Virus record (IMG/VR): IMGVR_UViG_3300010148_000098
Location: 1 to 25,925 of that record
Direction: 5' to 3' (one strand)
Origin: a virus
DNA length: 25,925 nucleotides
The position numbers were made by a program, and so were the translations under genes. The notes beneath the pieces are model-generated. The model ran no database searches and was not told the DNA's origin. It saw only the letters and a list, made by a program, of their open reading frames with translations. Positions 3,818-25,905 of this stretch are shown here, piece by piece. The stretch's first letter is position 1, and every line of letters starts with the position of its first letter.

Positions 3818-5653
3818 CTATTGGAAACCACTATCTTTTTGCTTAGAAGTAGGGTCTTTCGCGGCTTGAATGCTATCAAGTGCTTCTTCTAAAGGTGATT
3901 TTTTAGCACCGCGTTGATTCTTCTTAGGTGAAGGTGCGCCGGATTGATGAGTTTCAGAACTAATAGGCGCAGGTCCATTATCGCGTTGCCCTGTTCCTTC
4001 ACCCAACCCTAATGCTTTTTCCATCATCATAATCGGTGTGCCACCACCGGGTGACGCTCCGCCACTAGGAGAAGCCCCTGCTCCCGGTGGCATCATCGCG
4101 CCCGCACCCTGTGGAGGTAAGCCGCCCCCCGGCGGCATAGGTGGAGGCATACCGCCACCGGGTGGCATACCCGGCGGCATAGGCATTCCGCCCGCCGCGC
4201 CACCTTGCTGTTGCATCATGGCTTCTTGCGGGTCGGGTTTCTTGTAAACAAAGCGTATATCGCGACCAGCATCTTCAGTCAACTCCGGTTGGAAACCAAG
4301 TTGTTGCATACGCTGTGCGATGTTAACTTCTTGCTCATCGCGTCTTAGTCGTGTGATTTCATCTTCTTCTTCATTCGGGTATAGCGTCAAAGACCAATCT
4401 TCAACGCCCATTTGGTCTAACAGACGAGGGAATAATTCGCGTGAATATAATTTCTGTCCCGACTCAACTGCTCGATTAGTAACAAGTATCTGCATACCTT
4501 CGTTATTCAGTCCACCGGATTTTCCAGCATCCATCATAAACACATTAGAAACACCATAGAAAGCCGCTATACGCATTCGTATTTCATCACGAACTTGAGC
4601 GTATTGCATTTCATCAAGACTATCCATAAAGCGTACAAACTCAACTTTACCACGACCGGACGCAGATTCAACACCAACTTTCGGTATGTAGTGTGGGTCG
4701 CGTTCCATCTTCTCTTCCGCACCCTTCCAAAATGAAGCGGTTGATTGAATATTATCAGTGGTGATAGCGAGTACACCGCGTGGGATTCTTCGCTTTTGAT
4801 ATGCGAGATAGATGTAATTATCCATCGCTGTAAGTGACTGTGCTTGCCTCCACATACTAGCGACAGGAGAACGCCCATACAGTTTAGACGGGTTGAACTT
4901 AGACAAGTGTAACACTTCACCATCAATATAGTATTGCGTTTTACCACTACCAGCAGTATTGATGTAATGAACATCTTGGAGAGGGAGAGAACACACTTCG
5001 CACTTCTTATGCTCGCGGTTATGAGGATAGGTTTTGTCACGATGAATAGGACACAAAAGGTATCTGCCACCACGCTTACCTGCTTTGTCAGCAACAATAC
5101 GCATGAATGTTGGGTCACCACGCACTAACTCTTTGACTCGGAAGAACTCTATTTCACCACTATCGGGGTCAATGAAATATTCTTTGATTAGCAACAAGAA
5201 CGCGTCATCAACAATATCTAAATCCCATTCTATCTCTTTCATTATCTCAATGAATGATTGGTCCATACTATTGCGTTGTTTCAATAACCAACGCGGATAC
5301 ATTATTTGGTCTGCCTCCGGGCTATCAAACTCTTCGTTACCACAAATGCGACATTCACTTACAGTATCATGTTGATATTCTTCTTCGCAGTTTGTGCATT
5401 TTTTGTGATACTTCTTCTCCCAATAGTAACCGCGTCTGAAGATTTCTTGACATAGTGTGTTGATTGTAGTTCGCAAAATAATCGACTCTTGAACAGTCGC
5501 GTAAAGTGCAGGTATTGAAACACCTTGTACGAGAACAGGTTCTTGTATGCCCGTTTTCCATAACGGCATCATAGGTTCGGGTGTCGAACGCCTTCTGAAC
5601 GGTTTACTCAGCGAACTTAAAAAACGACCTACTAATCCTTTTTCTTCTGCCAT
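3818..5653 (-). CDS. Portal protein with two inserted zinc knuckles and a Pro/Gly-rich tail
   Basis: This 611-aa protein is the likely portal, the dodecameric ring at one capsid vertex through which DNA is packaged and ejected. The recognisable part is the clip/stem region around residues 250-290, with the Gly-Arg-Ser-Pro motif followed by a helix ending in Lys-Arg-Arg-Ile-Pro-Arg-Gly, and a later helix of the form found in HK97/PBSX-type portals (Ala-Ala-Phe-Tyr-Gly-Val, about residues 365-375). Two metal-binding knuckles interrupt the fold: C86/C89/C101/C104, a rubredoxin-like ribbon, and C201/H204/C218/C221. Residues 490-560 are Pro/Gly/Met low complexity, probably a disordered C-terminal extension. 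The ATG overlaps the previous gene's TAA by one base. Terminase and other packaging genes lie upstream in the same unit. Portal identity is fairly sure; zinc binding is inferred from residue spacing. Confidence 0.85.
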   Translation of the reverse strand: MAEEKGLVGRFLSSLSKPFRRRSTPEPMMPLWKTGIQEPVLVQGVSIPALYATVQESIILRTTINTLCQEIFRRGYYWEKKYHKKCTNCEEEYQHDTVSECRICGNEEFDSPEADQIMYPRWLLKQRNSMDQSFIEIMKEIEWDLDIVDDAFLLLIKEYFIDPDSGEIEFFRVKELVRGDPTFMRIVADKAGKRGGRYLLCPIHRDKTYPHNREHKKCEVCSLPLQDVHYINTAGSGKTQYYIDGEVLHLSKFNPSKLYGRSPVASMWRQAQSLTAMDNYIYLAYQKRRIPRGVLAITTDNIQSTASFWKGAEEKMERDPHYIPKVGVESASGRGKVEFVRFMDSLDEMQYAQVRDEIRMRIAAFYGVSNVFMMDAGKSGGLNNEGMQILVTNRAVESGQKLYSRELFPRLLDQMGVEDWSLTLYPNEEEDEITRLRRDEQEVNIAQRMQQLGFQPELTEDAGRDIRFVYKKPDPQEAMMQQQGGAAGGMPMPPGMPPGGGMPPPMPPGGGLPPQGAGAMMPPGAGASPSGGASPGGGTPIMMMEKALGLGEGTGQRDNGPAPISSETHQSGAPSPKKNQRGAKKSPLEEALDSIQAAKDPTSKQKDSGFQ

Positions 5654-7044
5654 TATATCATCTCCACAAGTCGGTTAGCGTCGTCAACAAGACGAAGGGT
5701 TTCGCCGTCCCGATTAAACATCGCAAGCACTCCCGCTTCATCAATGTTCCACTCCTTTAGCAATTCTTCGCGCTTATCCGGTACATCTTTCCAATTCAAC
5801 CACTTGACGATGCGAAACAATTCATCACGGCGTGATTTGATAATATCAGTTTTACGACCACGCAAATCAAGAAGTTCTAAGATTGCATCGGCCTGTCCCT
5901 TTTTCATCCGCAAATGTGGTTTGATACCTTTCATCAGTTTGCGTAAATCATCTCGACTGTAAAATTGTAACCTGTGTTGAGTTCTTCTGCTATTCTTATG
6001 AATCTTCAAATCAGTCTGTAACACACCACATCCAAGAGCCTTGTGTAAATGTTCACAATGCATCTTGCCTCTTTCACCTGTGGCAATAAAACCTGCTCGC
6101 GGCTCAAGACGCTTTGTGATAGTAATATAACCGTCAGCATCTAGGAAACCAGCAGCATAAGCCCATACATCTTTGAAAATAACCGTATCATCTCTGATGA
6201 TACCCCACGATTTACCAATGCGCTCAATGTTATATTCAACACCATGCGTCTTGAGAAGCGCGCTCAACTTTGAACTTGAAAGATTTCTAGCACCTATCAT
6301 GTTGGCAAAAATCTCAGATGATGGTAGCGGTCCACGCTTTTCAAGTATTTCAACGGATTTCGTTAAATGAATGGCCTCGGTTTTTTTGATATTATCAATT
6401 GAATGCAAAGCGTTCTTCCATTCTTTTTTCGCATTCTTTTTGATTTGTTGTGCGTCAACCCACATCTGTCTTTGCTCATCATTGAAATCTCCTTCAAGTA
6501 GCAACAATTTACTGATGGTATCATTAGCGTTTTCCCATTGAACACACGCTCTTCTTAGCGCGTATTGACGATTGTTACCATGTTTTCTCAACGCTTGTAG
6601 GTCGCGCTCGCTAATGCCGAGATTGCGGACAGTACCTTCATGCTTACCAATCCATTCAATTGATTGAAGGGTTGCTTCGACTTCTTGCTTCTTCGCGATA
6701 CGAATAGCATCAATGGCATAATCAATAGCATCGCGCATATCTTTATGTTCACGACGAGCCATTCTCAAATCCTTAACTAAGTCACCAGCACCGCGACCAA
6801 ACATTGACTGAAACCATCCACCATCGGGGAGAGAACGATTGAGTTGTTGTTGAACTACTTGCTTTATCTTCTCTTCTTCTTCTTTCTCACCGTCTTGATT
6901 ATTTTCGGGTGGTGTAGGATTGGCGTTTGCCTCTCCTTGACCTCGATTCGCAGGTCTAGGTGCATCACCAAACGAAGGTCCTTGTATAGTGTTTTTCAAT
7001 ACACTGTTCGACAGTATTTCGGAAAAAGAGAATATTTCAACCAT
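5653..7044 (-). CDS. Coiled-coil protein fused to a LAGLIDADG endonuclease-like domain
   Basis: This 463-aa protein has three visible parts. Residues 1-60 are disordered (Pro, Asn, Glu-rich). Residues 60-235 are long charged helices. Residues 235-290 resemble a winged-helix segment, followed by a single LAGLIDADG motif at 297-305 (Ala-Ala-Gly-Phe-Leu-Asp-Ala-Asp-Gly) and a basic C-terminal region to about 395 that fits a single-motif homing endonuclease half. Asp302 (first acidic residue of the motif) or Asp304 would be the metal ligand. Such domains act as dimers on double-stranded DNA. It overlaps the portal by one base and is neither an intron nor an intein insertion as far as the sequence shows, so it looks like a stable virion or packaging gene. 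Whether it still cuts DNA is unknown. The start ATG shares 8 bases with the small gene upstream. Confidence 0.8.
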   Translation of the reverse strand: MVEIFSFSEILSNSVLKNTIQGPSFGDAPRPANRGQGEANANPTPPENNQDGEKEEEEKIKQVVQQQLNRSLPDGGWFQSMFGRGAGDLVKDLRMARREHKDMRDAIDYAIDAIRIAKKQEVEATLQSIEWIGKHEGTVRNLGISERDLQALRKHGNNRQYALRRACVQWENANDTISKLLLLEGDFNDEQRQMWVDAQQIKKNAKKEWKNALHSIDNIKKTEAIHLTKSVEILEKRGPLPSSEIFANMIGARNLSSSKLSALLKTHGVEYNIERIGKSWGIIRDDTVIFKDVWAYAAGFLDADGYITITKRLEPRAGFIATGERGKMHCEHLHKALGCGVLQTDLKIHKNSRRTQHRLQFYSRDDLRKLMKGIKPHLRMKKGQADAILELLDLRGRKTDIIKSRRDELFRIVKWLNWKDVPDKREELLKEWNIDEAGVLAMFNRDGETLRLVDDANRLVEMI

Positions 7045-7162
7045 CTGATTTCATAGCCTCCGGTCGGCCATTTTCAACCCAACACTTCTTACAAAATCCA
7101 AAAGGGTACAATTCGGGTGTTGTGTAACAACACCCTTTGTAAACCCCTTCGACTTCACTCAA
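7037..7162 (-). CDS. Small Cys-rich (zinc-knuckle-like) protein, 41 aa
   Basis: A short frame fills the space between two larger genes. It starts at TTG 7162-7160, which overlaps the previous stop as TTGA, with GAGGTG about six bases upstream, and ends at TGA 7039-7037 inside the next gene. The peptide has adjacent cysteines at residues 11-12 and a Cys-x2-Cys pair at 24-27, with aromatic residues between, resembling a small treble-clef or ribbon zinc site. The coupling pattern (NTGA overlap plus Shine-Dalgarno) matches neighbouring genes and supports a real gene. An upstream GTG at 7171 is an alternative start. Function unknown. Confidence 0.55.
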   Translation of the reverse strand: MSEVEGVYKGCCYTTPELYPFGFCKKCWVENGRPEAMKSDG

Positions 7163-7836
7163 CAATTCCACCTCTTCAGTGATGCACCCTTTGGTGTTAG
7201 TTTACCTTTTTTAGAAGTCGGTCCTTTAACACCACTCATCCGCGCACAAAATGACTTGCGTCTTTTGGCTTTTTTACCACCGGGTTTGAGTTTGCTAGGT
7301 TTAGTTGTAACAGGTGGTTTTAGATTCGCTCCTGTCTTGCGCTTTGCAGCAGCACGACCTTTAGCATTCAAACCACCCTTTTTACTGTGCTTGTTAGGGT
7401 TGTAACCATGAAACGGTTTGCTCTTTTTCTTTGCTTTTAGCACAGAACTTGCTATGTCAAAAGGAGAGCAGCACGAACAAAATGTTACTTGTTTCGCGAT
7501 GTCATCATCTGTCATCATTGCTAATTCTTCTGCCGTTATCGGCTCATGTTCTATGTATTCGTATTGCATCTTCACCACCGTCGGCTTACCGCCCACTCCT
7601 TGTTTTTTACTGCGTTTTCGTTTTGTAGCCGCGCGCTTTTGACCTTCCGACATAGAGCCGGATGTTTTTGGAGTTTTACTTGACACTTTAACAGATGGGC
7701 GACATTTTGGATAACCCTTTGAAGAAGTCTTGGCTTTGCTTCGCCCACATGGAGGATGTGACCCATCCTTCTTTTTACGGGAAACATCCACCCACTTCTC
7801 TTTGAACCAACGGTTCAAGTTCTTCTCAACTGTCAT
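7159..7836 (-). CDS. Very basic protein with DUF5872-like N-terminus and DUF6321-like C-terminus
   Basis: This 225-aa protein is rich in Lys and Arg. Residues 4-50 (Lys-Asn-Leu-Asn-Arg-Trp-Phe-Lys-Glu-Lys-Trp-Val-Asp start, then Pro-Cys-Gly-Arg and Tyr-Pro-Lys-Cys-Arg-Pro) look like the DUF5872 family. Residues 153-205 (Gly-Gly-Leu-Asn-Ala-Lys-Gly-Arg-Ala-Ala, then Leu-Lys-Pro-Pro-Val and Ser-Phe-Cys-Ala-Arg-Met) look like DUF6321. Both assignments are from memory of the sequence patterns. I know such domains mainly as short proteins of unknown function in aquatic phages and giant viruses; here both sit in one chain, joined by an acidic linker with a Cys-x-Cys-Cys cluster at 120-123. A nucleic-acid-binding or DNA-condensing virion role fits the charge but is inference. 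The ATG overlaps the previous TGA as ATGA. Confidence 0.82.
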   Translation of the reverse strand: MTVEKNLNRWFKEKWVDVSRKKKDGSHPPCGRSKAKTSSKGYPKCRPSVKVSSKTPKTSGSMSEGQKRAATKRKRSKKQGVGGKPTVVKMQYEYIEHEPITAEELAMMTDDDIAKQVTFCSCCSPFDIASSVLKAKKKSKPFHGYNPNKHSKKGGLNAKGRAAAKRKTGANLKPPVTTKPSKLKPGGKKAKRRKSFCARMSGVKGPTSKKGKLTPKGASLKRWNC

Positions 7837-7997: not shown

Positions 7998-8452
7998 TTC
8001 TTTTTGCCTCCTTTCTTCTTTCCTTTGAACTTACCGCGACAGTATTGAACAGCCCAACCGTTAGCATACGCGCTTGGATAAACCTTGAACTTTCGCTTTG
8101 CTGCTGCTTTACCAGCCGGACATAACTTCTTCTCAAGATAACCAAAAGCCGCTTCAGTACCTACACAAAACTCACAATTACAGTCTGATGATTTAATCGT
8201 CATTTGAGAATTGTTTGCGGGTTGCCTATTCCTATTCACAAGTTCTCTGAATTGTTCCTCTTGTAAACGATTCTGTTCTGCTTTCTGTTTTTGTTGATTC
8301 GCTAAAAACTGCTTTGCTTCATCCGCTTTTTCTCTAAACTTTTGCTCTTGTAAAAGATTCTGCTGCGCTTTCTGTTTTTGTTGATTCGCTAAAAACTGCT
8401 TTGCTTCATCCGCTATTTGTCTAAATCGCCTCTCTTGTTCTTCATCGTTCAA
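7994..8452 (-). CDS. Coiled-coil repeat protein with basic Cys-containing C-terminus
   Basis: The chosen start is TTG at 8452, which overlaps the terminase stop as TTGA and gives 152 aa; a longer form starting at ATG 8518 would overlap the terminase by 70 bases. Residues 10-68 are two copies of a 29-residue helical repeat rich in Gln, Lys and Ala, a likely coiled coil. Residues 91-96 have Cys-x-Cys-x2-Cys, and residues 110-145 contain Lys-Phe-Lys-Val-Tyr-Pro-Ser-Ala-Tyr-Ala-Asn, a motif I associate with small basic proteins of marine viruses (related to DUF5872-type sequences). The tail is Lys/Gly-rich. It forms a coupled set with the two basic/Cys-rich genes downstream. A DNA-associated virion role is inferred only from charge. 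Confidence 0.78.
   Translation of the reverse strand: MNDEEQERRFRQIADEAKQFLANQQKQKAQQNLLQEQKFREKADEAKQFLANQQKQKAEQNRLQEEQFRELVNRNRQPANNSQMTIKSSDCNCEFCVGTEAAFGYLEKKLCPAGKAAAKRKFKVYPSAYANGWAVQYCRGKFKGKKKGGKKK
8280..8414. repeat. Two-copy tandem repeat with a 48-base perfect core
   Basis: The 48-base stretch at 8280-8327 recurs unchanged at 8367-8414, 87 bases later, so the repeat unit is 87 bases or 29 codons. Flanking bases are also similar. It encodes the duplicated coiled-coil unit of the overlapping gene. The perfect core at the DNA level, including synonymous positions, points to a recent duplication or gene conversion. Confidence 0.9.
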
Positions 8453-9849
8453 TCTAACAACCCCGCCATAACTTCGTCTAAGTCCACAATACGCTCGCGG
8501 AACTCGGTAGTAGCCCAATGTGCTAACGCCAATGCGATAGCAAAGTCATCGTGTCGCCCAATGCTATCAAGGCGACCCTTCTTACTCATACCGAACATAA
8601 GCAACTCTCGCTCAAGTTCAGACATGAGCGTGCGTGAACGGTCATCTCCCCACGGTAAACGAATCTGCTCTTTCTCAAAGCGCAACACCAAACCCATGAG
8701 AAGTGACTCACGGCGTTGGCGTGTGGAAATGAATGTCTTGATAGGAAGGTCAGTATCAGCGCGTAATTCAGTCGCGAAGACACGCTGGAAGTTGTTAGCC
8801 TCAAGTTCAATTACATCGGGATTGAACTTCGCATTCAAGCGTTGTATTTCCATAATCTGTGTTCTAAAGTCCATATTCTTACGGCGAATAGCGTGAACTA
8901 ATTCAAGCAATTCGGGATTAGTGGATGGACGACGAAGCACTACCATCACTGTATAGTCTGCTGAACGGTCGCTTGAAATAGCCGGGTCCCAACCGACGAA
9001 GTATTGGTCGTCCGGGTCGCCAACTTCGCGTTCAATCAATTTGAGTGTGCTATCTTTTGAGGCTTGCAAGATAGTGGAAGGGAATAGACTTGATACATCG
9101 TCCATTGGTTCACATAAATATTCGCGAGCAAACGCAATCGCTGGCATATCTGCCCTGCGCGCATCCAATGATTCTAAGTCCCATCGTTCCGGCCATAATG
9201 CTACACCTTGAGTATTTATCGCGGGGTATGTTTCAACAAGATAACCTTCACGGCTTTCAAGTTCAGTGTATAAATCGGTTGGAGTAAAGGGTGTCCCGAC
9301 TATCATTAGTTTAGATGTGTGGTGAAGTGTCGGTACAAGAACTTCGTAAAACCACGATGCAACGCGAGCAAGTTCTGTATCGGTAGTACCCCACAGAATG
9401 TCGTCACAAAGAATCAAATCGGGGTGAATACCACGAATAGCACCACCCACTGATTTCGCGCTAATGTTAGAACCATTGGCAAAACCGAAGAATGTTTTAG
9501 ACCAACTATCCGCCTTCTTCATTTTAGCAAGGAATGGCACACCATCAATTAAATCATTCAGTGTTCGCATGTGGTGTATAGACTGATGCAGACTGTGTGA
9601 AATTAATACTGCTTTGGTCTTTGGATTGAATGCGGTTTTCCATAACATGTAGCCGAGAAACAGTGTTGACTTACCGTGGTCACGCGCTGCTTTTACACAG
9701 TATCGCTTGCGCTTCTCAAGATTGTTATACCATCTTTCATGGTGGTGTGATAATTGAAACCCAAGAATCTCTTCAAAGAAGAACTTGAAGTCGCGCTTCG
9801 CTACTTCAAAGTCAATTTCTTCGATTGCTTCAAGGGATAATTGCTGCAC
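8449..9849 (-). CDS. terL: Terminase large subunit (packaging ATPase and nuclease)
   Basis: This 466-aa protein drives DNA into the capsid by ATP hydrolysis and cuts the concatemer. The ATPase half shows a Walker A-type loop at residues 56-62 (Arg-Asp-His-Gly-Lys-Ser-Thr), Walker B at 144-150 ending in Cys-Asp-Asp, and the coupling motif Gly-Thr-Pro at 185-187. The RNase H-like nuclease half has Asp288 after a Val-Gly-Trp stretch, an acidic pair at Glu348/Glu350, and Asp434/Asp435 in an Arg-His-Asp-Asp-Phe motif, so all three metal-binding acids are present. Length is normal for the family. The start is GTG at 9849, with AAGGTGAT overlapping the end of the previous gene. It docks on the portal, encoded about 4 kb downstream, and needs a small subunit, possibly the zinc/HTH protein at 14589-15257. 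Confidence 0.95.
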   Translation of the reverse strand: MQQLSLEAIEEIDFEVAKRDFKFFFEEILGFQLSHHHERWYNNLEKRKRYCVKAARDHGKSTLFLGYMLWKTAFNPKTKAVLISHSLHQSIHHMRTLNDLIDGVPFLAKMKKADSWSKTFFGFANGSNISAKSVGGAIRGIHPDLILCDDILWGTTDTELARVASWFYEVLVPTLHHTSKLMIVGTPFTPTDLYTELESREGYLVETYPAINTQGVALWPERWDLESLDARRADMPAIAFAREYLCEPMDDVSSLFPSTILQASKDSTLKLIEREVGDPDDQYFVGWDPAISSDRSADYTVMVVLRRPSTNPELLELVHAIRRKNMDFRTQIMEIQRLNAKFNPDVIELEANNFQRVFATELRADTDLPIKTFISTRQRRESLLMGLVLRFEKEQIRLPWGDDRSRTLMSELERELLMFGMSKKGRLDSIGRHDDFAIALALAHWATTEFRERIVDLDEVMAGLLD

Positions 9850-13326: not shown

Positions 13327-14589
13327 TTATACCCCACCTCGTCTTACATACAAGTCGTAGGGATGTGCGCCCCATCGTGTAGCGTCATCATCGGGGTCTG
13401 TTTCAGTTGCCCCTGTTGGATTAGATGAAAGACCACCCGATGAGTTAGGTGATGATTTCTCATCAGCACCCTGCATCGACTTATCCTCTTTACGCATCAA
13501 TCGGCGCAATAGATGGTTGAGTTGGTCTATCAATTGACGATATTCTATCTTATCGCGTTGGTTGAACTTGCCCTTTCTGATAAACTCTTCAGATGCAAGA
13601 ATTGAATCACTTGAGCCGATACCACCAGCGGCCATAGCAGAAGCACGACCACCAGCAAGGGATATGTCCTTCGCGGCTTCAGCACCACCCGGTGTTCTCG
13701 CAGTTCTTGGTTGCCTAGTAGCCTTCTTGTGCGGCTTAGAATCTCTCGACCCTCTAACCGCGCGTGGTATTCTCGCAGTAGGGGTGACTGTTGGAATAGG
13801 CGGTGTTACATCTTGTGTTGGTTGATTCTGCCTTTGCTGTTGCCTCATCGCTTCTGCTTCACGCTCTCTAGGGTTCTCATAGGAGGCTTTTGCCCTAGAA
13901 CGCCCTGTTGAAGTGGTGAGTCTTACAGGCGCGGTTCTTTGCCTGTAAGTGTAACCTCCACCGAATGAAGCATAAGGTGCGCGAGCCGCAGACATAGTAG
14001 CAGCAATGCCGGGTTGACGCACATTCCCTGCTTTCAACGGCACACCGCTACCCTTCTTTCTCCTTCTCCTTTTGATAGACTCGACCCTAACATTCTTTTT
14101 CGCTTTACGCTTCTTCCCTGTTTTCGCTCTTTCGCGCGCTCTTACAGTTTCAATAGTAGTGGTTTTCTGCGGTTTGTCTGTATCATATTTTGGCTCATTC
14201 TTCTTTTTGCGAATCATCTCAAACGCATCGTCGATGTAACCTGTTGTTGACAAAAGAATGTTAGAACCTAATCCGCTAGCATTTGGATTAGCACCCGCGT
14301 TGGCCTCGTTTTGGCCGACCTGCCCTGTCATTTGAGCAAGTTCAGCCTGTTGTTTCATTTGGCTATCTTCCTCATCTTCGGGGTTTTTCTGAGGGATTTT
14401 GATTTTCATATGTTGAATACCATGCAATTTTTTAGCACGCTTATCTTGCTCTTCGCGCTTTTTAGCCTCATGCTTGGCGCGCTCTTCTGAATCTTCGCGA
14501 CCAACACTAGAATCGTCTTGCAACTCTTCAGCACTTTGTCGAGGATTAAATCGTAGTCCAGCGGTACTACCTTCGGGACCGCCAACCAT
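13327..14589 (-). CDS. Very basic, disordered hypothetical protein
   Basis: The start is ATG at 14589, overlapping the previous TGA by one base, with GGGGATGAT just upstream; a TTG one codon earlier is possible but less likely. The 420-aa product is highly charged. Residues 30-55 are an alternating Lys/Glu helix. Residues 150-180 are a dense run of Lys and Arg. Residues 200-320 are Arg/Thr/Pro-rich with Gly/Tyr segments. About 345-368 is an amphipathic helix with Leu repeats. The C-terminal 50 residues are Ser/Gly/Asp-rich. A nucleic-acid-binding or condensing virion protein fits the composition but is unproven. No family recognised. Confidence 0.82.
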   Translation of the reverse strand: MVGGPEGSTAGLRFNPRQSAEELQDDSSVGREDSEERAKHEAKKREEQDKRAKKLHGIQHMKIKIPQKNPEDEEDSQMKQQAELAQMTGQVGQNEANAGANPNASGLGSNILLSTTGYIDDAFEMIRKKKNEPKYDTDKPQKTTTIETVRARERAKTGKKRKAKKNVRVESIKRRRRKKGSGVPLKAGNVRQPGIAATMSAARAPYASFGGGYTYRQRTAPVRLTTSTGRSRAKASYENPREREAEAMRQQQRQNQPTQDVTPPIPTVTPTARIPRAVRGSRDSKPHKKATRQPRTARTPGGAEAAKDISLAGGRASAMAAGGIGSSDSILASEEFIRKGKFNQRDKIEYRQLIDQLNHLLRRLMRKEDKSMQGADEKSSPNSSGGLSSNPTGATETDPDDDATRWGAHPYDLYVRRGGV

Positions 14590-15257
14590 CAAGCATCATC
14601 CCCTATCAGTTTACCGCGTAGTCTAGCCCAAACTTCGGGTGACTCCTTCGCTAACTCAACCTTGAGGATGTTGATAGTTTGAGCATTCATAGTTTCGTTA
14701 GTGTTACCCGCCGCACGCTCTTGGACGCGCATAATGTCTTTCACCGTTTCACGAACTTCTTTGTGCAATGAAACTATGTTGCGCACATATTGAGGGTCAT
14801 TACGGTCAGCATCGTCAAGGAAATGTCCTAATTCACCATTCATACGCGACAGGTTGTTTCGCAAGGATTCCATCTCTTGACCTGCTTCAACAATAATTAG
14901 GTCTGCTGCGCCCTTCTGTACGATAGGTTTGAGATGATGTCTGATATGATGATACACTGTGGATTCCGGTATCTGCAAATCTTCCGCTATTTGTTGGCTA
15001 GTCATAGAGCCGTTGAAATATGCCATCTCAAGAGATTCGCGTTTAGGCGAAGTGCAAAAACCACATTCACTGTTACTCGACATATGATACTCGCCCATAT
15101 GGTTGCGGAAATGACGGTCAGCCGTCCCTTCGCGCCAACCTTTTTGTTTATCCAATTCCTTCGCAGTCATAAGACCGGCTTTCATTAATTCTTCAATACT
15201 ATCGCGGTCGGGGTCTTGACAGAACTTACAGGAGGCCCTAGTTATACGCTCCGCCAT
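14589..15257 (-). CDS. Duplicated zinc/HTH DNA-binding protein, candidate terminase small subunit
   Basis: The ATG at 15257 gives 222 aa beginning with Met-Ala-Glu-Arg-Ile; ATG 15269 and TTG 15323 are alternatives that run toward or into the divergent gene. The N-terminal half is a tandem duplication of one module: Cys-x2-Cys (10/13 and 65/68), a helix-turn-helix, then a His pair (49/53 and 103-108). The second HTH (Ser-Gln-Gln-Ile-Ala-Glu-Asp-Leu, Pro-Glu-Ser-Thr-Val) is a good match to recognition helices that read DNA. Residues 115-195 form a coiled coil suited to oligomerisation. HTH plus coiled coil near terL is the usual design of small terminase subunits, which select viral DNA. A transcription factor is the main alternative. 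It is first in the packaging-gene run. Confidence 0.8.
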   Translation of the reverse strand: MAERITRASCKFCQDPDRDSIEELMKAGLMTAKELDKQKGWREGTADRHFRNHMGEYHMSSNSECGFCTSPKRESLEMAYFNGSMTSQQIAEDLQIPESTVYHHIRHHLKPIVQKGAADLIIVEAGQEMESLRNNLSRMNGELGHFLDDADRNDPQYVRNIVSLHKEVRETVKDIMRVQERAAGNTNETMNAQTINILKVELAKESPEVWARLRGKLIGDDA

Positions 15258-15295
15258 AGCAAAGACCATGTAGTGGTGGCAAAAGAACCTTTTCC
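15258..15295. promoter_or_regulatory. Divergent promoter region, 38 bases or less
   Basis: Only 38 bases separate the proposed starts of the minus-strand zinc/HTH gene (15257) and the plus-strand Cys-rich gene (15296). Neither start has a good Shine-Dalgarno sequence at normal spacing, unlike almost all other genes here. The two genes must either share a very short bidirectional promoter with leaderless transcripts or use promoters inside each other's coding sequence. No clear TATA element was found. The assignment rests on gene arrangement only. Confidence 0.4.
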
Positions 15296-15607
15296 ATGCG
15301 AAAACGCTTACAGCGCGCACCAAAAATTGGCGGAGTTCCTATCTCAATAGGGACCGCGAAGAGTCTTTCGCGTGCTGCCGCTGATTTGATTACTAATCAA
15401 CGCGCTGATGCGAAAGTGAAACAGCAAAGGCTATGGGTTTGCCAAAGTTGTCCCGAAAGACAAGGCATAAGGTGCGGATTATGCGGTTGCTTTTTGAAAA
15501 GCAAATCTATGCTCAAGAACAGCGAATGCCCCATAGGTAAATGGTCAACCTTGATTAGCGAGTCTGCGATAGACGATGCCGGTAGCAGTAAAACAAACGA
15601 AGAGTGA
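15296..15607 (+). CDS. Small six-cysteine zinc-finger-like viral protein
   Basis: This is the only convincing plus-strand gene. The 103-aa protein has a basic N-terminus and then a compact metal-binding core: C49/C52, C60/C63, C65 and C78, in the pattern Cys-x2-Cys-Pro, Arg-Cys-x2-Cys-Gly-Cys-Phe-x-Lys and Cys-Pro-Ile-Gly-Lys-Trp. I recognise this core as a widespread small phage and marine-virus protein of unknown function. The conserved Gly-Lys-Trp end of the core supports the frame. Its 3' end overlaps the convergent two-TM gene by 63 bases. It interrupts an otherwise minus-strand region, so it probably has its own promoter. Confidence 0.82.
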   Translation: MRKRLQRAPKIGGVPISIGTAKSLSRAAADLITNQRADAKVKQQRLWVCQSCPERQGIRCGLCGCFLKSKSMLKNSECPIGKWSTLISESAIDDAGSSKTNEE

Positions 15608-18893: not shown

Positions 18894-18894
18894 T
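18817..18894. repeat. Long inverted repeat flanking an AT-rich core
   Basis: The arm at 18817-18831 (ATTCTCGATATTATC) pairs with 18880-18894 (GATATTATCGAGAAT) with one central mismatch, and the interior contains further imperfect A/T palindromes (for example around 18833-18851). The right arm abuts the stop of the giant gene. It could be a terminator stem, a regulator-binding site covering a promoter, or a cruciform element. Confidence 0.8.
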
Positions 18895-21800
18895 TAACCA
18901 AGAGTGTCAAACTCTCCGCCTTCACGCGCTCTTGCTTGTTGTGCCTGTTGCTGGTTCAACGCGGCTTGTCTTTGGTTCTCCGCTTGTTGCGCTGCTGCAC
19001 TTCGTACTGCTTCCATATCTGCCGCTGTACCTCGTATTGGTGCATTGTAGTCGTGCATCGCTTTTTGTGCGAAGTCGAATTGCAAGGACTCGTCATAGTT
19101 AGATGGTGTTAGTGCCAAATCGGGATGATGCATAAGCAAAAGCATTTGAGATTCGTCTAACTTACTCGTTATCGAAAGCGGCAAATCATGCTCTTTGTAT
19201 AGTCTTTTCATTTCTGAGAAATCCATACCATCTTCGTTTTCGTCACCGTGTAATATATCTTCACGCGCTTCTCTTCGCATCCAATTAGGATAGTCTTCAT
19301 ACATAAGATTCTTTTTCAGCAAATCAAACTTCTTTTTCTCTTCGTCTGTAAACTCCGCTTCTTGGCTTTGCATAATGTGCGGAGTCACTTCATCGACCCC
19401 ACCACCAATGTTCAACGGTTTTAGTTTCCCATCTGAACCTTCTCCTACAATTGGTAAAGTGCTGCGCCCATTACTATCTTCGACAGGCAGCACTTTCGCG
19501 CCAGCCAACACTTCATTCTTGAAATCTTGAGGGTCAAGGACTAATTTGCCTATTGTAATCTTACCTTTCATATTCAACTTCTTATCCATGTCTTCTTCAT
19601 CTGTGAATCCAGCAAGCATAGCGGCCTCATCATAGAATTGCGGTTGTGTATTATCATCCATTGTCAATTGCGCGAAATTGGCGACGGTTACATTATCGTT
19701 TAAGTTAGGATAATCCAACTTATTCAATTTCCCTTGAATGAATTGCCTAAGTGCCATGCGTTTGACATATTCCTTCCACAACGGTCTGATTTGCTCATTT
19801 ATCGCGGAATCGTGTTCTGAACCTATGCCGCGTTTTTGATTCTGTGCGTTGCGAGTAAACAAGTATGTGTCCTTCAGTTTAGATTTGCTGACACCTTTCT
19901 CCTTCAACATTGACAAAAACTCATCATTCCAAGTAGCGGTCATACCTGTTTCGGTAGGTTCTATCGCGCTACCACCAAACTCTTCCATCAACGCGTTAAG
20001 TTTCTTACTCTCTATGTTAGTAGTGTTTACGCGATTCATTGGTCTTTGTGTACCCGTTACTTTATCAGTAAACTTAGGGTCGTTAATAACTTCCATGATT
20101 GCATCCATTTCATGTTGCTTGAACTTTTCATCTTGCTGCATTCTGTATAGAAGGTTTGTAGCATCATCATCGCCTCTATAATGCATTACCATATCTGCAA
20201 ATGTCGGCTCTTTTGGTCGCCTATGCGGTTCCGCAGGGTCAAACAGACCTTCGTAGTATTCTTTAGATGTCATGAATCTGCCATGCGCGAATATCTTAGG
20301 TTCAAACTGTGTTGCCTTCTTTTGAATTGGTAACTCTTTACCAGCAAAATAATCTGACGGACTGAAACCTAATTCACCTTCTTCGCCCATTGGGAGTGGC
20401 ATTCTTTTCGCCTCTTCAGTCGCGAAATGTCTTTCTGCTAGTTCTTGCAGTTTATCCAAAGGTTCCACGATAGGATGGTCTTCATCACCATGCGCATGTT
20501 TCCTGTGCGGGTGGTTCAAGATTTCATTAACTAAACCGTCAATCATGGCAATATCATCATCACTTGTAGCAGTTTGTTTCGCATACTTAGATAACACCGC
20601 AACCCTATCTTCTAAGATTTTATTGATATGCGCGTCCATGAGTTTACCATGAACTTTACCTTGCATAGTGCCGGAATAAGCACCATACCCCGTACCTGTC
20701 GGTGCTTTGTAAGGAGGGCGTTCTCGGTCTTCTAAATCTCTAAGACCCTGCCCCACATCTCCGCCACTACCCAACACTTCGGCTAATGTTGTCATTTTAG
20801 ATTGCTCCGGCGTTTCCGACTCATCATCCGCAAAATCAAACATCGGAGTTAACGAAAGAGGTTCGCGAGTTTTCTCCTTCTTTCGCGCTTCTATCAAATC
20901 TCTCTTGCTGGTGTATAAGCCTGTTTTCAGCCAATTCTCATACTGTTCGTGTGGCATAGAAGCAGGTCTGAAAGACTGAATAACTTCTTTCAGATAATCG
21001 GGTATTTCTGTTCCACCCGTTCTGTAATCCGCGAGCATAGCGAATAGTTGATTCATAGCATCTTGGCTTCGACTATGTGTGTGATGATTATGCAACTTAC
21101 CTGTTATGAAGTTGCCATCTTGGTCAATGTAACCATTGTGAATCATATCGTTATCTTCCGGGTCGCGCATTCCACTACTGAAACAGTGAGAACACAAACC
21201 GTTTGATATTTTACCACCTATTACACCGGGGTCATCATGTTCACAGTCGGGGCAAGCAATTTGCTCATGGTCGTCTGCTCCCATAGGATGTTCTTCATCA
21301 GAATACATAGGGTGTGAACCCCACGAACCGTGGTCGCGTGGTCGCATATTATCAGCGATGTATTTGTTCATCTTAGGTGAGTTTGAATCTTCACCACTCA
21401 TGCCAGCAACGCGACTCTTTACCCAAGAGGCTGCTTCGCCTCTATTGATATGACCGTGACCGTGACAACTACCGCACAATGTCGGTGCGTTATCGGGCCA
21501 ATTAGAAATCAAATCCGCGCTAATATTACCTTTCTCGATTTCCTCTTCCGCCCCTCTAGTGAAATGTGAGTTCTGATGCCTTCTGCGCATTTCTGCTTCT
21601 GTCAACATACCCATCCCATCTTCTTCGCTGTCATGGTGAGAGTGGTCCGCTGAAGAGTGGTTTATCATGTCTTCGGGGTCTAACCCTAACATCTCTGCTA
21701 CTTCTTCGTCTAGCATACCGACATCCGCGTCTTTCATTATTTTCTCGATTGTTTTTTGGTCTTCAGCAGACAGGCTTTCATGCCCCTTCAATCTTCTGAG

Positions 21801-24800
21801 CGCGCGTAGTTGATTCATGTCGTTTGGTCTTGGTAACGCCTTATTGTTAGTGAAGTGCCTAACACCTGTTCCAGCCATTTCACCCACTTTACCTAACTTG
21901 TAATTGCTGAGTTGGTGCTGATAATCTCGCGTTACCTTTCCAAACTCATCGCCTTGTAAGATGGTGTCATCACCTTCGGGGTACACTTGCAATATCAATT
22001 CGGATAGTCTTTTTTGCATGTATTTATCAAAATGCTCTTTCCTTTCTTCGGGCCTCCACCGCTTGAAACTTTCTAACTTCTTAGTTTCCTTTTGCAAGTC
22101 TTGCATTGCTTTAACTATGTAACCACCAGCACCCATAAATGCACCTAGCGCGTAATCGTCATACCTTTGAATTGAATCCATGTCAGAACGGCTAGCATCA
22201 TTGAATCTCTTTGTATTGTCTTTGACGCGCTTTTCTATCTTCTTTCTCTCTTTGAGCATAGGACCATACTTCGCTTTCAATTGCTCTCTTCTCTTCTTCA
22301 ATATCTCTTTTTGAGAAGGTGAAGAGTATTCACCGGGGTATGTCCTTTCAACCCCATCTTCCATAACTTTCTGCGGTTTGGTCTTTGCTTCATCTGCTTC
22401 TAATTGCGCTAGCAGCCCTTGATAAAGCGCGTGTGCTTGCTCAGTTTGCTGCAAATCATCTTGTGCGCGCTTGAGATTCTTTTCGGCCCTTTTCCTATTT
22501 TTGTTAGGTTGTTTAACAATCCTATCTATCATCGCTTTTCTGCCACTTTCGCTTCTTAGCGCAGACAAAGCAACCTTTCTGTTGTTGCCTTTTTCATCAG
22601 CAATCTTCCCATCAGATAACTCTTGCAGCAAATCCATAGCGTTCAACATCGCTTCATATCTTATTGCGTTAATAGTCATAAGCCGCGCGTTTTCATAATG
22701 AGTATCGTAAGCATCCTCAGAAGGTAACAAAAACGATGAAGCAATCAATTCATTGTTACTGTAACCAGCAGGTCCACTCGCTATACTGTAATCGTGTTCC
22801 TTAAACAACCCGAACTTATTGTAAATATTCTGCGCTCTTGAGTTACCTGTTACAACCGCTTCTTTGATTTTCCTACGAAGTCGTCTTTCGGTTCTATCGC
22901 GCCAACGACTCTTTTCGCCCCTCTTCTCCGCCGCTTCTTCTTTTTCCATCATCTCGTTATATGAAAAACCCCCGTCGGGGAATATGAAATCAGCAATGTT
23001 GGCGATTGACGGTTGCGTGCTAGTATCTCCCATCAAAAACAAGTCTTTGATTTGATTTGATTCTGCATCTTTGTATTTGGTTAGAATCGGAACTTGCATC
23101 ATTTTGCGCGTATAAGGAGTCTTACTCCTACCGTCAAAGAAGCCGGGTGACTCTTCTCTAGCAGTTTCCGCGTCACTTGTCATAAAGCGTGAATGATGAC
23201 ACCCGTTACAATCTTCGGGGTCGTGTATTAGATGTTTGTTGCTCTCGATGAACTCCTTCGGTAATTCTATTTTCTCCGGCAAGAATATCTCACCCCTAGA
23301 GCGTAACTCCGCATCGTCCTTGACAGGACCCATACCATACCTCATTGCAGTTCGATGTCTAGCGAAACGCTTGTTTTGCTCATCAACTTTCATATGATAC
23401 TCATTGTTTTTCGCTTCTGCTCTTCCTCTTTTTTCCAAGAAGCGCAATAATTTACCTGTTGCAAACTCAGACAGGTTACCTTCGCGGAATCCACCTTGAA
23501 CTCTGCTATGGAGATATTGCAAAGCGTTAGAGTAACCCTGCTCGGTCATATCTTCACCAGCGTATCTAACTGCGGCTTCCATGAAATTACTAGGAGAAAT
23601 ACCTAATTCTTTGAAGCGGTTCAATCGCTTGTTCATACTTTGCGCGTAGTCTGCTAAAACCTCGTTTGCGTTTTGACCGAGTAGTCCTGTCAACTCTTTG
23701 TATTTGTTCATCTGCTCTTCTGTCATATTAGCGCGTGAACTACCTTTTTCGTAGTATTCCATAATATTCATCAAATCGTCCGAAGATAGATTCAATTCTT
23801 TGAACTTGTCAAGACCGGCCCGTCTATCCTCCGCCGTTTCATTACCACTATAATTTTTGACTACAAGATTTTTCAGTGTTTGATTTAGCCTACCCATGCC
23901 TATTAGATTATCAACGAAGCCGCTAGTTTCTTTCGCTATTTGCTCGGCGTTTTTACCATAGAAAGCGTGACCTTTACCGAAGTCTTTACCTTCAATACCA
24001 TCCATTATCTTATCCGGGTCAAACGCGGATATAGAATCGCCGTATAACTTTCTCATTTGATATTCGTTATCACTGATTTGACCGCTTGAGTGAAGATATT
24101 CTAGGTTGGCAGTTTCACGATTGACTTTGATTTTGCGCGTCCTTTCGTTACCCTGTTGGATTATCTTTAGTTCATCTTCGGGAGTCATCAATGCCGATTG
24201 AGTGCCTACACCTTCGCGTGCTTCTTTCGCACGCATTTCACGCTCTTCTTTAGTTCCAGCAGCCTGTGCTTCACCTTCAACAACCGCCCTCTTATCTTCT
24301 AACTCGGTGTCTAACACCCCGCCTTCTCTCATCGCGTTCATTAGTGAAAAGTGGAAACCTTCATCGGTATCTATTTGCGCTACTGCATCGCGAACTTCGT
24401 CGCTCATAGGGTCCTTGCCTCTAAGCCAATAACCAGCAATCTCATCGGGTATGTTTGGTGCATCTTCTCTAGGGATTACTATACCCAAGTCTTCTGCCGC
24501 TGCTGCAAGCGAAGGTGACATAGCGTTAGGTGCTTGACCAACTTCAATCTCGCCACCGAACCTACCCGCGCGCCCCGATGTTCCGAATGCTTTCTCTCCT
24601 GTTAGAGCCACCATGAACTTGTTGAACCTATCTTGGATTTTATCGAATGCTTGCGGTACAGTAATTTTTTCATTAGCAGCGACCCTTTCAATATAGTCTT
24701 TGTATATCTTGATTGTTGGAGTAGTGGGTCTATTGAACTTCATCCTAGAAGCCGCTAGTGTGCCTTCACCCGTAGGTTCGATAGAAGTTTCATCGAATAA

Positions 24801-25640
24801 ATCACCATACATTCGCCGCGCTTCTTGTAACCTTTTAGTGTCATACTTGGGTGAAGCAGAAACGAATGCTGGTTTAATTTTTCGACCGGATTGGTCCGTT
24901 CCTTCCTCAACCCCTCGGTCATCATACCCTACATAGCCACCGTAGGATGAGAAATCTTCACCTCCCTCTTGCTGCTCTTCACGCGCTTGTTGTAGTTCCT
25001 GTATGTAAGCAGGGTCAACCAATCTCACCCTACCGCTTGACTTTCGCGGCGCGCGCTTTGGCTTTTCGAGAGTGTCGCTACCGATGGTATGGTATAGAGA
25101 TTCAGCAATCGGGTGGTTCGCTTTTGAGAGTAGGTTATAGATACCTTTCAATTCAGAACCTTTCATTTCCCTTTCTTCTTTAGAGGGGGCTGCGATAAAC
25201 TTCGATATATCAGCGCGAATACCCCTGTTGGTTTTCAGTAAGTCATTCAGCGAACCATTCTCTTCCTCGTCCTCTGCAATAACATCTTTTAGTGGGGTAA
25301 TACTATCTGCTATTCTTTGCATCCAAAGCGCGACAGAAGGCGTGTAAATCGGTGTGTCTAATAGACTAACTAACTCATCACCTTCTTCGGTTTTTATATT
25401 GTCGTCTAGTGATTCTCTATCTAATCCCATCGCGTCTGCTAACATGTAGTTATTCGCAAACAGAACATCATTGAATAATTCATAGTGGTCTATTTCCTCA
25501 TCCGCATATTTTTCAGTGAGCAATTGTGCCATGTAACCCGATAGCGCGTCGAAACCTGCCTTTACCCTTTCATGATTGCGTTTAGGCTTCTTAGATTGCT
25601 CTTCATCAGCCTTCACGATGCGGACATATGATACGCTCAT
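18894..25640 (-). CDS. Giant hydrophilic virion-type protein, about 2248 aa, with Cys-pair zinc motifs
   Basis: ATG at 25640 is preferred; a TTG at 25748 would add 36 residues read from structured GC-rich DNA. No Shine-Dalgarno site precedes the ATG, but a TATA-like element lies about 30 bases upstream, fitting a leaderless transcript. The protein is charged and Met-rich, without membrane segments, so it is unlikely to be a classical tape measure. Cys-x2-Cys pairs occur at about 811/814, 1389/1392, 1463/1466 and 1483/1486; the last three, with His/Gly spacing, resemble the DnaJ-type zinc centre. Charged coiled-coil stretches lie around 1080-1180 (Lys/Glu/Gln), and the last 40 residues are Ala/Gln coiled coil. 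No enzyme motif was recognised. A multidomain structural or ejected protein is inferred from size and context. Confidence 0.88.
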   Translation of the reverse strand: MSVSYVRIVKADEEQSKKPKRNHERVKAGFDALSGYMAQLLTEKYADEEIDHYELFNDVLFANNYMLADAMGLDRESLDDNIKTEEGDELVSLLDTPIYTPSVALWMQRIADSITPLKDVIAEDEEENGSLNDLLKTNRGIRADISKFIAAPSKEEREMKGSELKGIYNLLSKANHPIAESLYHTIGSDTLEKPKRAPRKSSGRVRLVDPAYIQELQQAREEQQEGGEDFSSYGGYVGYDDRGVEEGTDQSGRKIKPAFVSASPKYDTKRLQEARRMYGDLFDETSIEPTGEGTLAASRMKFNRPTTPTIKIYKDYIERVAANEKITVPQAFDKIQDRFNKFMVALTGEKAFGTSGRAGRFGGEIEVGQAPNAMSPSLAAAAEDLGIVIPREDAPNIPDEIAGYWLRGKDPMSDEVRDAVAQIDTDEGFHFSLMNAMREGGVLDTELEDKRAVVEGEAQAAGTKEEREMRAKEAREGVGTQSALMTPEDELKIIQQGNERTRKIKVNRETANLEYLHSSGQISDNEYQMRKLYGDSISAFDPDKIMDGIEGKDFGKGHAFYGKNAEQIAKETSGFVDNLIGMGRLNQTLKNLVVKNYSGNETAEDRRAGLDKFKELNLSSDDLMNIMEYYEKGSSRANMTEEQMNKYKELTGLLGQNANEVLADYAQSMNKRLNRFKELGISPSNFMEAAVRYAGEDMTEQGYSNALQYLHSRVQGGFREGNLSEFATGKLLRFLEKRGRAEAKNNEYHMKVDEQNKRFARHRTAMRYGMGPVKDDAELRSRGEIFLPEKIELPKEFIESNKHLIHDPEDCNGCHHSRFMTSDAETAREESPGFFDGRSKTPYTRKMMQVPILTKYKDAESNQIKDLFLMGDTSTQPSIANIADFIFPDGGFSYNEMMEKEEAAEKRGEKSRWRDRTERRLRRKIKEAVVTGNSRAQNIYNKFGLFKEHDYSIASGPAGYSNNELIASSFLLPSEDAYDTHYENARLMTINAIRYEAMLNAMDLLQELSDGKIADEKGNNRKVALSALRSESGRKAMIDRIVKQPNKNRKRAEKNLKRAQDDLQQTEQAHALYQGLLAQLEADEAKTKPQKVMEDGVERTYPGEYSSPSQKEILKKRREQLKAKYGPMLKERKKIEKRVKDNTKRFNDASRSDMDSIQRYDDYALGAFMGAGGYIVKAMQDLQKETKKLESFKRWRPEERKEHFDKYMQKRLSELILQVYPEGDDTILQGDEFGKVTRDYQHQLSNYKLGKVGEMAGTGVRHFTNNKALPRPNDMNQLRALRRLKGHESLSAEDQKTIEKIMKDADVGMLDEEVAEMLGLDPEDMINHSSADHSHHDSEEDGMGMLTEAEMRRRHQNSHFTRGAEEEIEKGNISADLISNWPDNAPTLCGSCHGHGHINRGEAASWVKSRVAGMSGEDSNSPKMNKYIADNMRPRDHGSWGSHPMYSDEEHPMGADDHEQIACPDCEHDDPGVIGGKISNGLCSHCFSSGMRDPEDNDMIHNGYIDQDGNFITGKLHNHHTHSRSQDAMNQLFAMLADYRTGGTEIPDYLKEVIQSFRPASMPHEQYENWLKTGLYTSKRDLIEARKKEKTREPLSLTPMFDFADDESETPEQSKMTTLAEVLGSGGDVGQGLRDLEDRERPPYKAPTGTGYGAYSGTMQGKVHGKLMDAHINKILEDRVAVLSKYAKQTATSDDDIAMIDGLVNEILNHPHRKHAHGDEDHPIVEPLDKLQELAERHFATEEAKRMPLPMGEEGELGFSPSDYFAGKELPIQKKATQFEPKIFAHGRFMTSKEYYEGLFDPAEPHRRPKEPTFADMVMHYRGDDDATNLLYRMQQDEKFKQHEMDAIMEVINDPKFTDKVTGTQRPMNRVNTTNIESKKLNALMEEFGGSAIEPTETGMTATWNDEFLSMLKEKGVSKSKLKDTYLFTRNAQNQKRGIGSEHDSAINEQIRPLWKEYVKRMALRQFIQGKLNKLDYPNLNDNVTVANFAQLTMDDNTQPQFYDEAAMLAGFTDEEDMDKKLNMKGKITIGKLVLDPQDFKNEVLAGAKVLPVEDSNGRSTLPIVGEGSDGKLKPLNIGGGVDEVTPHIMQSQEAEFTDEEKKKFDLLKKNLMYEDYPNWMRREAREDILHGDENEDGMDFSEMKRLYKEHDLPLSITSKLDESQMLLLMHHPDLALTPSNYDESLQFDFAQKAMHDYNAPIRGTAADMEAVRSAAAQQAENQRQAALNQQQAQQARAREGGEFDTLG

Positions 25641-25668
25641 CGTATGCCCGATGACAACTCTGCCCTTC

Positions 25669-25674
25669 AATATA
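25669..25674 (-). promoter_or_regulatory. TATA-like element upstream of the giant gene
   Basis: On the minus strand TATATT begins 34 bases before the proposed ATG at 25640. Archaeal TATA boxes sit about 26-30 bases before the transcription start, so transcription would begin within a few bases of the ATG, matching the missing Shine-Dalgarno site. The call depends on the host being archaeal. Confidence 0.4.
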
Positions 25675-25742
25675 CCGATTTTTTTGAAGATTTTTTTTTG
25701 GCCCCATGAAAAAAATATCTGTATTTCGCACGCGGTTAAGGA

Positions 25743-25905
25743 GGGCAAATTGCCGTCGCGACAACGCGACTCCGGCTAACGCGATTTGCCCGTAGCGTCG
25801 CGAATGCTTCGCGATGCGCTCGCGTAACGCAATATGCCGCGCAGTAATGCGGTTTTCACAGGTGACGCGAAACATTTCGCGTGTCGCGGGGTTGTTCGTC
25901 ACCGC
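25743..25905. other. GC-rich block of nested hairpins, no convincing gene
   Basis: Base composition changes sharply to CG-rich here. Visible stems: GGGCAAAT 25743-25750 with ATTTGCCC 25784-25791, enclosing GTCGCG 25755-25760 with CGCGAC 25765-25770 (loop ACAA); GCGTCGCGAA 25795-25804 with 25808-25817 (one G-U); ACGCGAAA 25865-25872 with TTTCGCGT 25875-25882; and GGTGACG 25861-25867 with CGTCACC 25897-25903. It could be a structured RNA leader, an origin or packaging signal, or an intergenic regulatory element. The window ends at 25925, so its full extent is unseen. An open frame across it looks like a by-product of the CG-rich repeats. Confidence 0.6.

Follow-up and report, generated by a model that had tools for sequence, protein, structure and literature searches.

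A conserved LAGLIDADG nuclease fused to a helical protein between the terminase and portal genes of magrovirus-like viruses

In phage HK97, the HNH nuclease gp74 promotes cos cleavage together with the large terminase subunit, TerL (excerpts of PMC9410871); its gene lies at the terminase/portal cluster and is retained in relatives. Excerpts of PMC10448857 describe the terminase region as a known hot spot for selfish nucleases. The debate there, on whether nucleases beside the terminase are selfish passengers or packaging parts, concerns HNH genes, and for genes resembling homing endonuclease genes (HEGs) in this place the two readings are not mutually exclusive. Among LAGLIDADG nucleases, the homodimeric I-MsoI and I-CreI carry one motif per chain and cleave targets of about 20-24 bp; LAGLIDADG endonucleases leave 3' overhangs of 4 nt (excerpts of PMC7282813). 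WhiA (DUF199) carries a helix-turn-helix (HTH) next to its LAGLIDADG fold. WhiA and the yeast HO endonuclease are both domesticated; HO, an intein-related host gene for mating-type switching, keeps cleavage, whereas WhiA, a former endonuclease, has lost it (excerpts of PMC7282813). Here we describe a gene on the minus strand (5653..7044) of a 25,925-base virus contig (IMG/VR record IMGVR_UViG_3300010148_000098; below, the window). Its 463-residue open reading frame (ORF), with an ATG start, joins a helical part, a winged helix and a LAGLIDADG nuclease domain. Sequence comparison establishes its fold, kept active-site residues, a fixed position, a single copy and strong purifying selection. On balance, we favor a stably inherited, domesticated endonuclease of the I-MsoI/I-CreI type, fixed between TerL and portal, that would help packaging by a site-specific cut.

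The identity of the LAGLIDADG domain (residues 291 to 400; 5845..6174, minus strand) is weak from the single sequence and firm from the family and the predicted structure. Taken alone, the window protein matched Pfam LAGLIDADG_3 at E 0.38, under the cut-off, and I-MsoI in phmmer at E 0.002 to 0.83. All 39 aligned family members matched phrog_5046 (best E 1e-11), which is labelled HNH endonuclease yet aligns to the LAGLIDADG part, and the family profile found I-MsoI in the PDB at E 1.8e-7. The AlphaFold model aligns to I-MsoI with Z 14.6 and a root mean square deviation (rmsd) of 2.2 over 130 residues at 25% identity, and its secondary structure contains the alpha-beta-beta-alpha-beta-beta-alpha core. 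The single motif in the C-terminal region, noticed in the initial annotation from the letters alone, is thereby confirmed, one motif per chain as in I-MsoI and I-CreI; the structural match rules out a chance LAGLIDADG motif. A Pfam scan of the fused protein found no HNH domain, the LAGLIDADG fold being there instead.

The catalytic aspartate of the LAGLIDADG motif (FLDADG), D304 (6133..6135, minus strand), is kept in all 88 sequences. K381 (5902..5904, minus strand), the alignment counterpart of what we take, from I-CreI residue numbering, to be the active-site lysine, is kept in 87 of 88; the sole exception, L307, is a frame-broken copy with a gap at this position. The family therefore has both the aspartate of the LAGLIDADG helix and the active-site lysine of the I-MsoI/I-CreI type. 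Structure prediction and an inspection of the active-site acids, which the initial annotation had proposed as checks, agree on an I-MsoI-like nuclease. The window domain differs from I-MsoI and I-CreI in that a module of 290 residues, made up of helices and a winged helix, is fused in front of it, that no intron or intein surrounds it and that it is fixed in a virus morphogenesis cluster.

That module begins with an N-terminal segment (residues 1 to 73; 6826..7044, minus strand), which is the least conserved part and mostly modelled at low confidence (predicted local distance difference test [pLDDT] below 50 for residues 1 to 50). The helical part (residues 74 to 223, 77 to 237 in the models; 6376..6825, minus strand; pLDDT about 90) is modelled as a multi-helix bundle. 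A Foldseek search with it returned nothing at E<=0.001 and listed no known fold, which does not imply a new one. The winged-helix segment (residues 224 to 288, with matches over 217 to 287; 6181..6375, minus strand) was recognized by VIA structural matches to African swine fever virus I73R (Z 8.7, rmsd 1.9, 62 aligned residues) and to Z-alpha domains (Z 8.4 to 8.6); because such Z values are common for small winged-helix domains, we claim only the fold class. Behind the nuclease, C-terminal helices (residues 401 to 463; 5656..5844, minus strand) carry conserved residues, W418 and W432 among them. The full-length AlphaFold model has a mean pLDDT of 77.7, about 80 to 89 in the LAGLIDADG region, and a predicted template modelling score of 0.46, so low that the model does not fix the relative placement of the domains. 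Modelled separately, the N-terminal part reached a pLDDT of 89.9 and again consisted of a helical bundle and a winged helix; the long helical protein with a winged-helix-like segment that had been read from the sequence is thus present in both models. The viral protein A0A516LD89 (UniProt, 533 residues), a Foldseek match over 440 alignment columns at E 3.7e-20 and 24% identity, is probably a remote relative that shares the fusion.

A winged helix combined with a LAGLIDADG domain resembles the layout of WhiA, in which cleavage was lost. The domain could accordingly be a DNA-binding part only, and the protein a packaging-site binder or late-gene regulator that does not cut. We regard this as rather improbable: WhiA lost cleavage, whereas the window family keeps D304 and K381 and conserves its catalytic domain more strongly than any other part of the protein.

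Relatives were collected from IMG/VR in scans that each kept the best 80 (of 317, 122, 172, 408, 133 and 142). A query with the window protein led to 52 distinct loci, and one with the family alignment to 317 relatives among 407 pattern matches. Three portal queries, independent of the nuclease, gave 122, 408 and 142 relatives, and a query led by the portal of HVTV-1, a Haloarcula tailed virus, gave 133. Removal of exact duplicates reduced 344 loci to 88 distinct portals, of which 87 with at least 1.7 kb upstream entered the neighbourhood count; the other, L142, has 1396 nt upstream, with no match in that stretch. Also outside the count are the halovirus and methanogen-virus loci L054-L056, L265-L270, L314 and L315, which where they have a portal are without the fusion, and L090, which has it.

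The fused ORF lies directly upstream of the portal in all 87 neighbourhoods, and the order TerL-fusion-portal holds in all 84 with TerL in view (TerL is out of reach in the other three). In the window, the portal gene (3818..5653, minus strand; phrog_18178, E 1e-74; 30% identity to the HVTV-1 portal) shares one nucleotide of its start codon with the stop codon of the fused gene (TAATG), which bears out the earlier placement immediately before the portal; the overlap is 1 nt in 54/87 neighbourhoods and 4 nt in 9/87. Not one of the 87 is an empty site, and we reject a recent selfish insertion on this ground. With the helical part as bait (best 80 of 172 relatives kept), 56 new loci were examined, of which 52 have the fusion and the other 4 are truncated at a contig end. 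At none of the loci was there a complete helical part free of the nuclease, all N-terminal ORFs without one being cut by a contig end. The pattern named beforehand as speaking for a selfish insertion, helical parts lacking the nuclease and lying at random positions, was therefore looked for and not seen. In all 12 large contigs searched the nuclease gene is single-copy, with no second location.

Elsewhere, the whole fused protein was absent from 50,697 phage records, where the other queries met only stray LAGLIDADG or chance matches; among genome contigs there was one relative in 191 pattern matches, on an 18,054-base contig that is assigned to a Cytophagaceae metagenome-assembled genome and appears identical to a contig of equal length in the viral set. 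L090 (PAUP01000076.1) is a virus contig binned in a Cytophagaceae metagenome-assembled genome and appears to be present in the viral collection too. In L139 and L143, about 1070 nt of extra sequence separate the nuclease gene from the portal, and L142 may resemble them.

Selection was estimated as the ratio of nonsynonymous to synonymous divergence (dN/dS) from 54 to 77 pairs of moderate dS per region, drawn from every pairing of the 81 sequences; with median synonymous distances as high as 0.4 to 1.1, the ratios are rough. Median dN/dS was 0.029 for the LAGLIDADG domain, 0.038 for the portal and 0.038 for TerL. The other parts of the fused protein gave 0.049 (helical part), 0.060 (C-terminal helices), 0.075 (winged helix) and 0.147 (N-terminal 73 residues), which leaves the nuclease domain as the most conserved of them. 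Mean amino acid identity over all pairs was 0.77 for the nuclease domain, 0.80 for the portal, 0.73 for TerL and 0.55 for the helical part. By these estimates, purifying selection on the LAGLIDADG domain is as strong as on the portal and TerL. Nuclease distances correlate with those of the portal (Pearson 0.80) and TerL (0.70) across the 81 sequences, and 10 of the 13 well-supported LAGLIDADG splits recur in the portal tree. The decay expected of a selfish HEG was not seen: dN/dS is 0.03, the active site is kept, and L307 is the one frame-broken copy of 88.

HVTV-1 has the order gp108, HNH gp109, TerL, HNH gp111, portal, gp108 being a weak match to the small terminase subunit, TerS (phrog_3218, E 3e-4). 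At L270, a gp108-like protein (phrog_26615, E 7e-41) is followed by an HNH-like protein (judged by eye), TerL and the portal. Like the fused protein, HVTV-1 gp111 sits between TerL and the portal, the latter having 30% identity to the window portal. The likeness ends there: gp109 and gp111 (Druskaviridae) are zinc/HNH proteins of about 210 residues, dissimilar to the fused protein and missing from that place in HCTV-1, and homology of the fused protein to the HVTV-1 HNH genes was rejected, there being no similarity. HK97 gp74 likewise has an unrelated nuclease fold, HNH, whereas the window nuclease is fused to other parts. With TerL flanked by HNH genes in HVTV-1 and by none in HCTV-1, HNH does not belong to the fixed packaging parts even of the related haloviruses. 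In haloviruses the nuclease at TerL and portal is HNH and optional, whereas the magrovirus-like group has a LAGLIDADG protein fixed in this place.

Domestication is well supported by these sequence comparisons: the place is the same in 87 of 87 neighbourhoods, the active site is kept, and selection resembles that on the portal and TerL. This part of the initial annotation stood. Its further suggestion, that the LAGLIDADG domain took over the role of a packaging HNH nuclease, fared less well, with position in its favor and HCTV-1 lacking the HNH gene. The conservation suggests that the viruses now depend on the nuclease, probably for DNA packaging, a role that we infer from position alone. The favored reading draws on the HNH genes that flank TerL in HVTV-1 and on the part of gp74 in cos cleavage. 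The nuclease would dimerize via its LAGLIDADG helices, and the helical and winged-helix parts would guide it to DNA or to the terminase and portal. By analogy with gp74 and TerL in HK97, a site-specific cut or nick would then help to start or end the packaging of viral DNA concatemers.

Several observations weigh against this proposal. In HCTV-1, TerL and portal have no nuclease between them, so that related viruses manage without one there. The nuclease-portal gap is at least 80 nt in 19/87 neighbourhoods, up to 1070 nt, and strict coupling of the two genes is thus not universal. Of the 13 LAGLIDADG splits with good support, two disagree with the portal tree and two with TerL. L044 is a mosaic: within its LAGLIDADG domain, close to a contig end, the DNA identity to the window climbs from about 65% to about 94%. 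The DNA target of the nuclease is still only a candidate, and cleavage and the packaging role are predictions. Finally, a place beside the terminase is also usual for selfish nucleases (excerpts of PMC10448857). Because HEG-like genes gather there and both readings are compatible, our confidence in the favored reading is modest, a little above even.

The same hot spot, the kept active site, the mosaic L044, the two splits in conflict with the portal tree, and the many annotated HNH genes of HVTV-1, together with its free LAGLIDADG gene 143 elsewhere in the genome, would fit a long-lived selfish HEG. Such a gene would have swept to fixation and be kept by repeated homing next to terL, cutting the DNA of rival viruses in or near terL and gaining by co-conversion, that is, by intron-less homing. 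We think this unlikely, since no empty allele exists among the 87 occupied neighbourhoods, dN/dS equals that of structural genes, each of the 12 contigs has one copy and no second location, and in every complete case the nuclease is fused to the conserved helical part. The identity jump in L044 lies at about 6350-6653 and runs up to the contig end; it may be recombination or a chimeric assembly.

The minus-strand order of the window, in the direction of transcription, is an HTH protein, three large ORFs, TerL, a 174-residue ORF, a 225-residue ORF, the fused gene and the portal. TerL (8449..9849, minus strand) matches phrog_38 at E 3e-61 and Terminase_6N/6C. The HTH protein (244 residues; 14589..15323, minus strand) is a candidate small terminase, present in 10 of the 12 contigs searched; in the two without it, the nuclease gene is close to the contig end. 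It is located about 5 kb upstream of TerL and does not adjoin it. The fused protein might itself be a small terminase that has gained a nuclease: its helical and winged-helix parts would oligomerize and bind pac or cos, and the LAGLIDADG domain would cut. Its helical plus DNA-binding layout would suit this, as would a fusion ORF that, counted from distances, abuts or overlaps TerL in 41 of 84 cases. We give this possibility little weight, since the separate HTH protein in the head cluster is the likelier TerS and a TerS/TerL pair is labelled in a figure legend on Aoguangviridae (PMC10768690); no TerS match was listed for the fused protein by sequence or by fold, which by itself excludes nothing.

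A lead to the DNA target came from a scan for excess synonymous conservation, run on codon alignments of TerL, fusion and portal only (34 representatives of 81). Codons 136-142 of terL stand out at z 7.4, the next TerL window reaching z 3.8. Codon 135 is conserved as well (GGT in 71/82), and the candidate DNA element of codons 135-142 thus spans 24 bp (9424..9447, minus strand). Within it, CGT is chosen in 75/82 sequences, GGT at codon 140 in 77/82 and CAC in 81/82, against usages of 0.27, 0.51 and 0.51; three of 85 TerL rows are gapped there. Permutation within amino acid classes matched the signal in 0/1000 trials with the 34 representatives, and in 4/1000 and 8/1000 with 16. The 22-mer of the stretch occurs once in the window, allowing up to three mismatches. 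Of six predicted RNA pairs at the stretch, none shows a compensatory change. Relatives of the TerL of Bacteroides phage SJC03, sought as an outside control, were not found. In a target search by shared 12- and 14-mers, the four top candidates inspected by eye read as conserved TerL codons.

The stretch encodes a conserved TerL motif, and translation effects may possibly underlie its conservation. It is a possible lead, as a candidate only, to a nuclease target or a packaging site. In a bolder form of the idea, the packaging-site nuclease of an entire virus order would have arisen from a homing endonuclease. It would recognize the 22- to 24-bp terL element (codons 135-142, with GGTG...CACC ends), kept intact by every nuclease-bearing genome, and its cut there would start packaging; we consider this doubtful. 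Synonymous conservation is also raised at the 3' end of the fused gene (5656-5757, minus strand; codons 429-463, z 4.6 to 5.8), just before the portal start, and may mark a signal for translation or regulation of the portal gene.

The viruses look, from their gene content, magrovirus-like, and a host among ocean archaea, of the order Poseidoniales as in Magrovirales, and the matching marine habitat would follow from this. Their nearest named portals are those of Haloarcula tailed viruses (Druskaviridae), at 30% identity. Two contigs above 100 kb (102.9 and 106.9 kb) carry PolB and a chaperonin; more widely, PolB occurs in 3 of 12 contigs and Cpn60 in 4 of 6. The features by which Magrovirales are recognized, a genome of 90-110 kb, PolB, a chaperonin and a Druskaviridae-related portal module, are all present, and the contigs fit the description of magroviruses of marine group II archaea (PMC12999244, PMC10768690, and excerpts of PMC5332604). 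MCM (PF00493; 0 of 5 records), archaeal primase (PF01896; 0 of 6) and TFB (PF00382; 0 of 6) were not found in records of which several are fragments; hence, the clade, judged by these genes, probably lies outside Aoguangviridae. A TerL search of phage records returned only Bacteroides phages and one other phage at E<=1e-20, and no haloviruses. The TerL of the window and the halovirus-type TerL (L054, 6798-8243) seem to be of different origins, though the portals are related.

We found no published report of the fused protein in listings of the literature on magroviruses or on links between LAGLIDADG and terminase, where an earlier mention in the main magrovirus papers is possible; the word LAGLIDADG is absent from the text of PMC10160649. 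With a LAGLIDADG nuclease in every distinct neighbourhood examined and selection as strict as that on the portal, the locus is a clean case for domestication among tailed viruses, and its protein is well defined for assays. If the favored reading is true, it adds to the fates of LAGLIDADG nucleases already seen in HO and WhiA and supplies a packaging component to viruses that only metagenomes have revealed.

Two further ORFs of the window, both on the minus strand, deserve mention. A basic 225-residue protein with DUF6321 and DUF5872 (7159-7836) recurs in the packaging cluster in almost every close relative. The 2284-residue ORF at 18894-25748, with no Pfam match above the cut-off, is probably a structural or tail protein.

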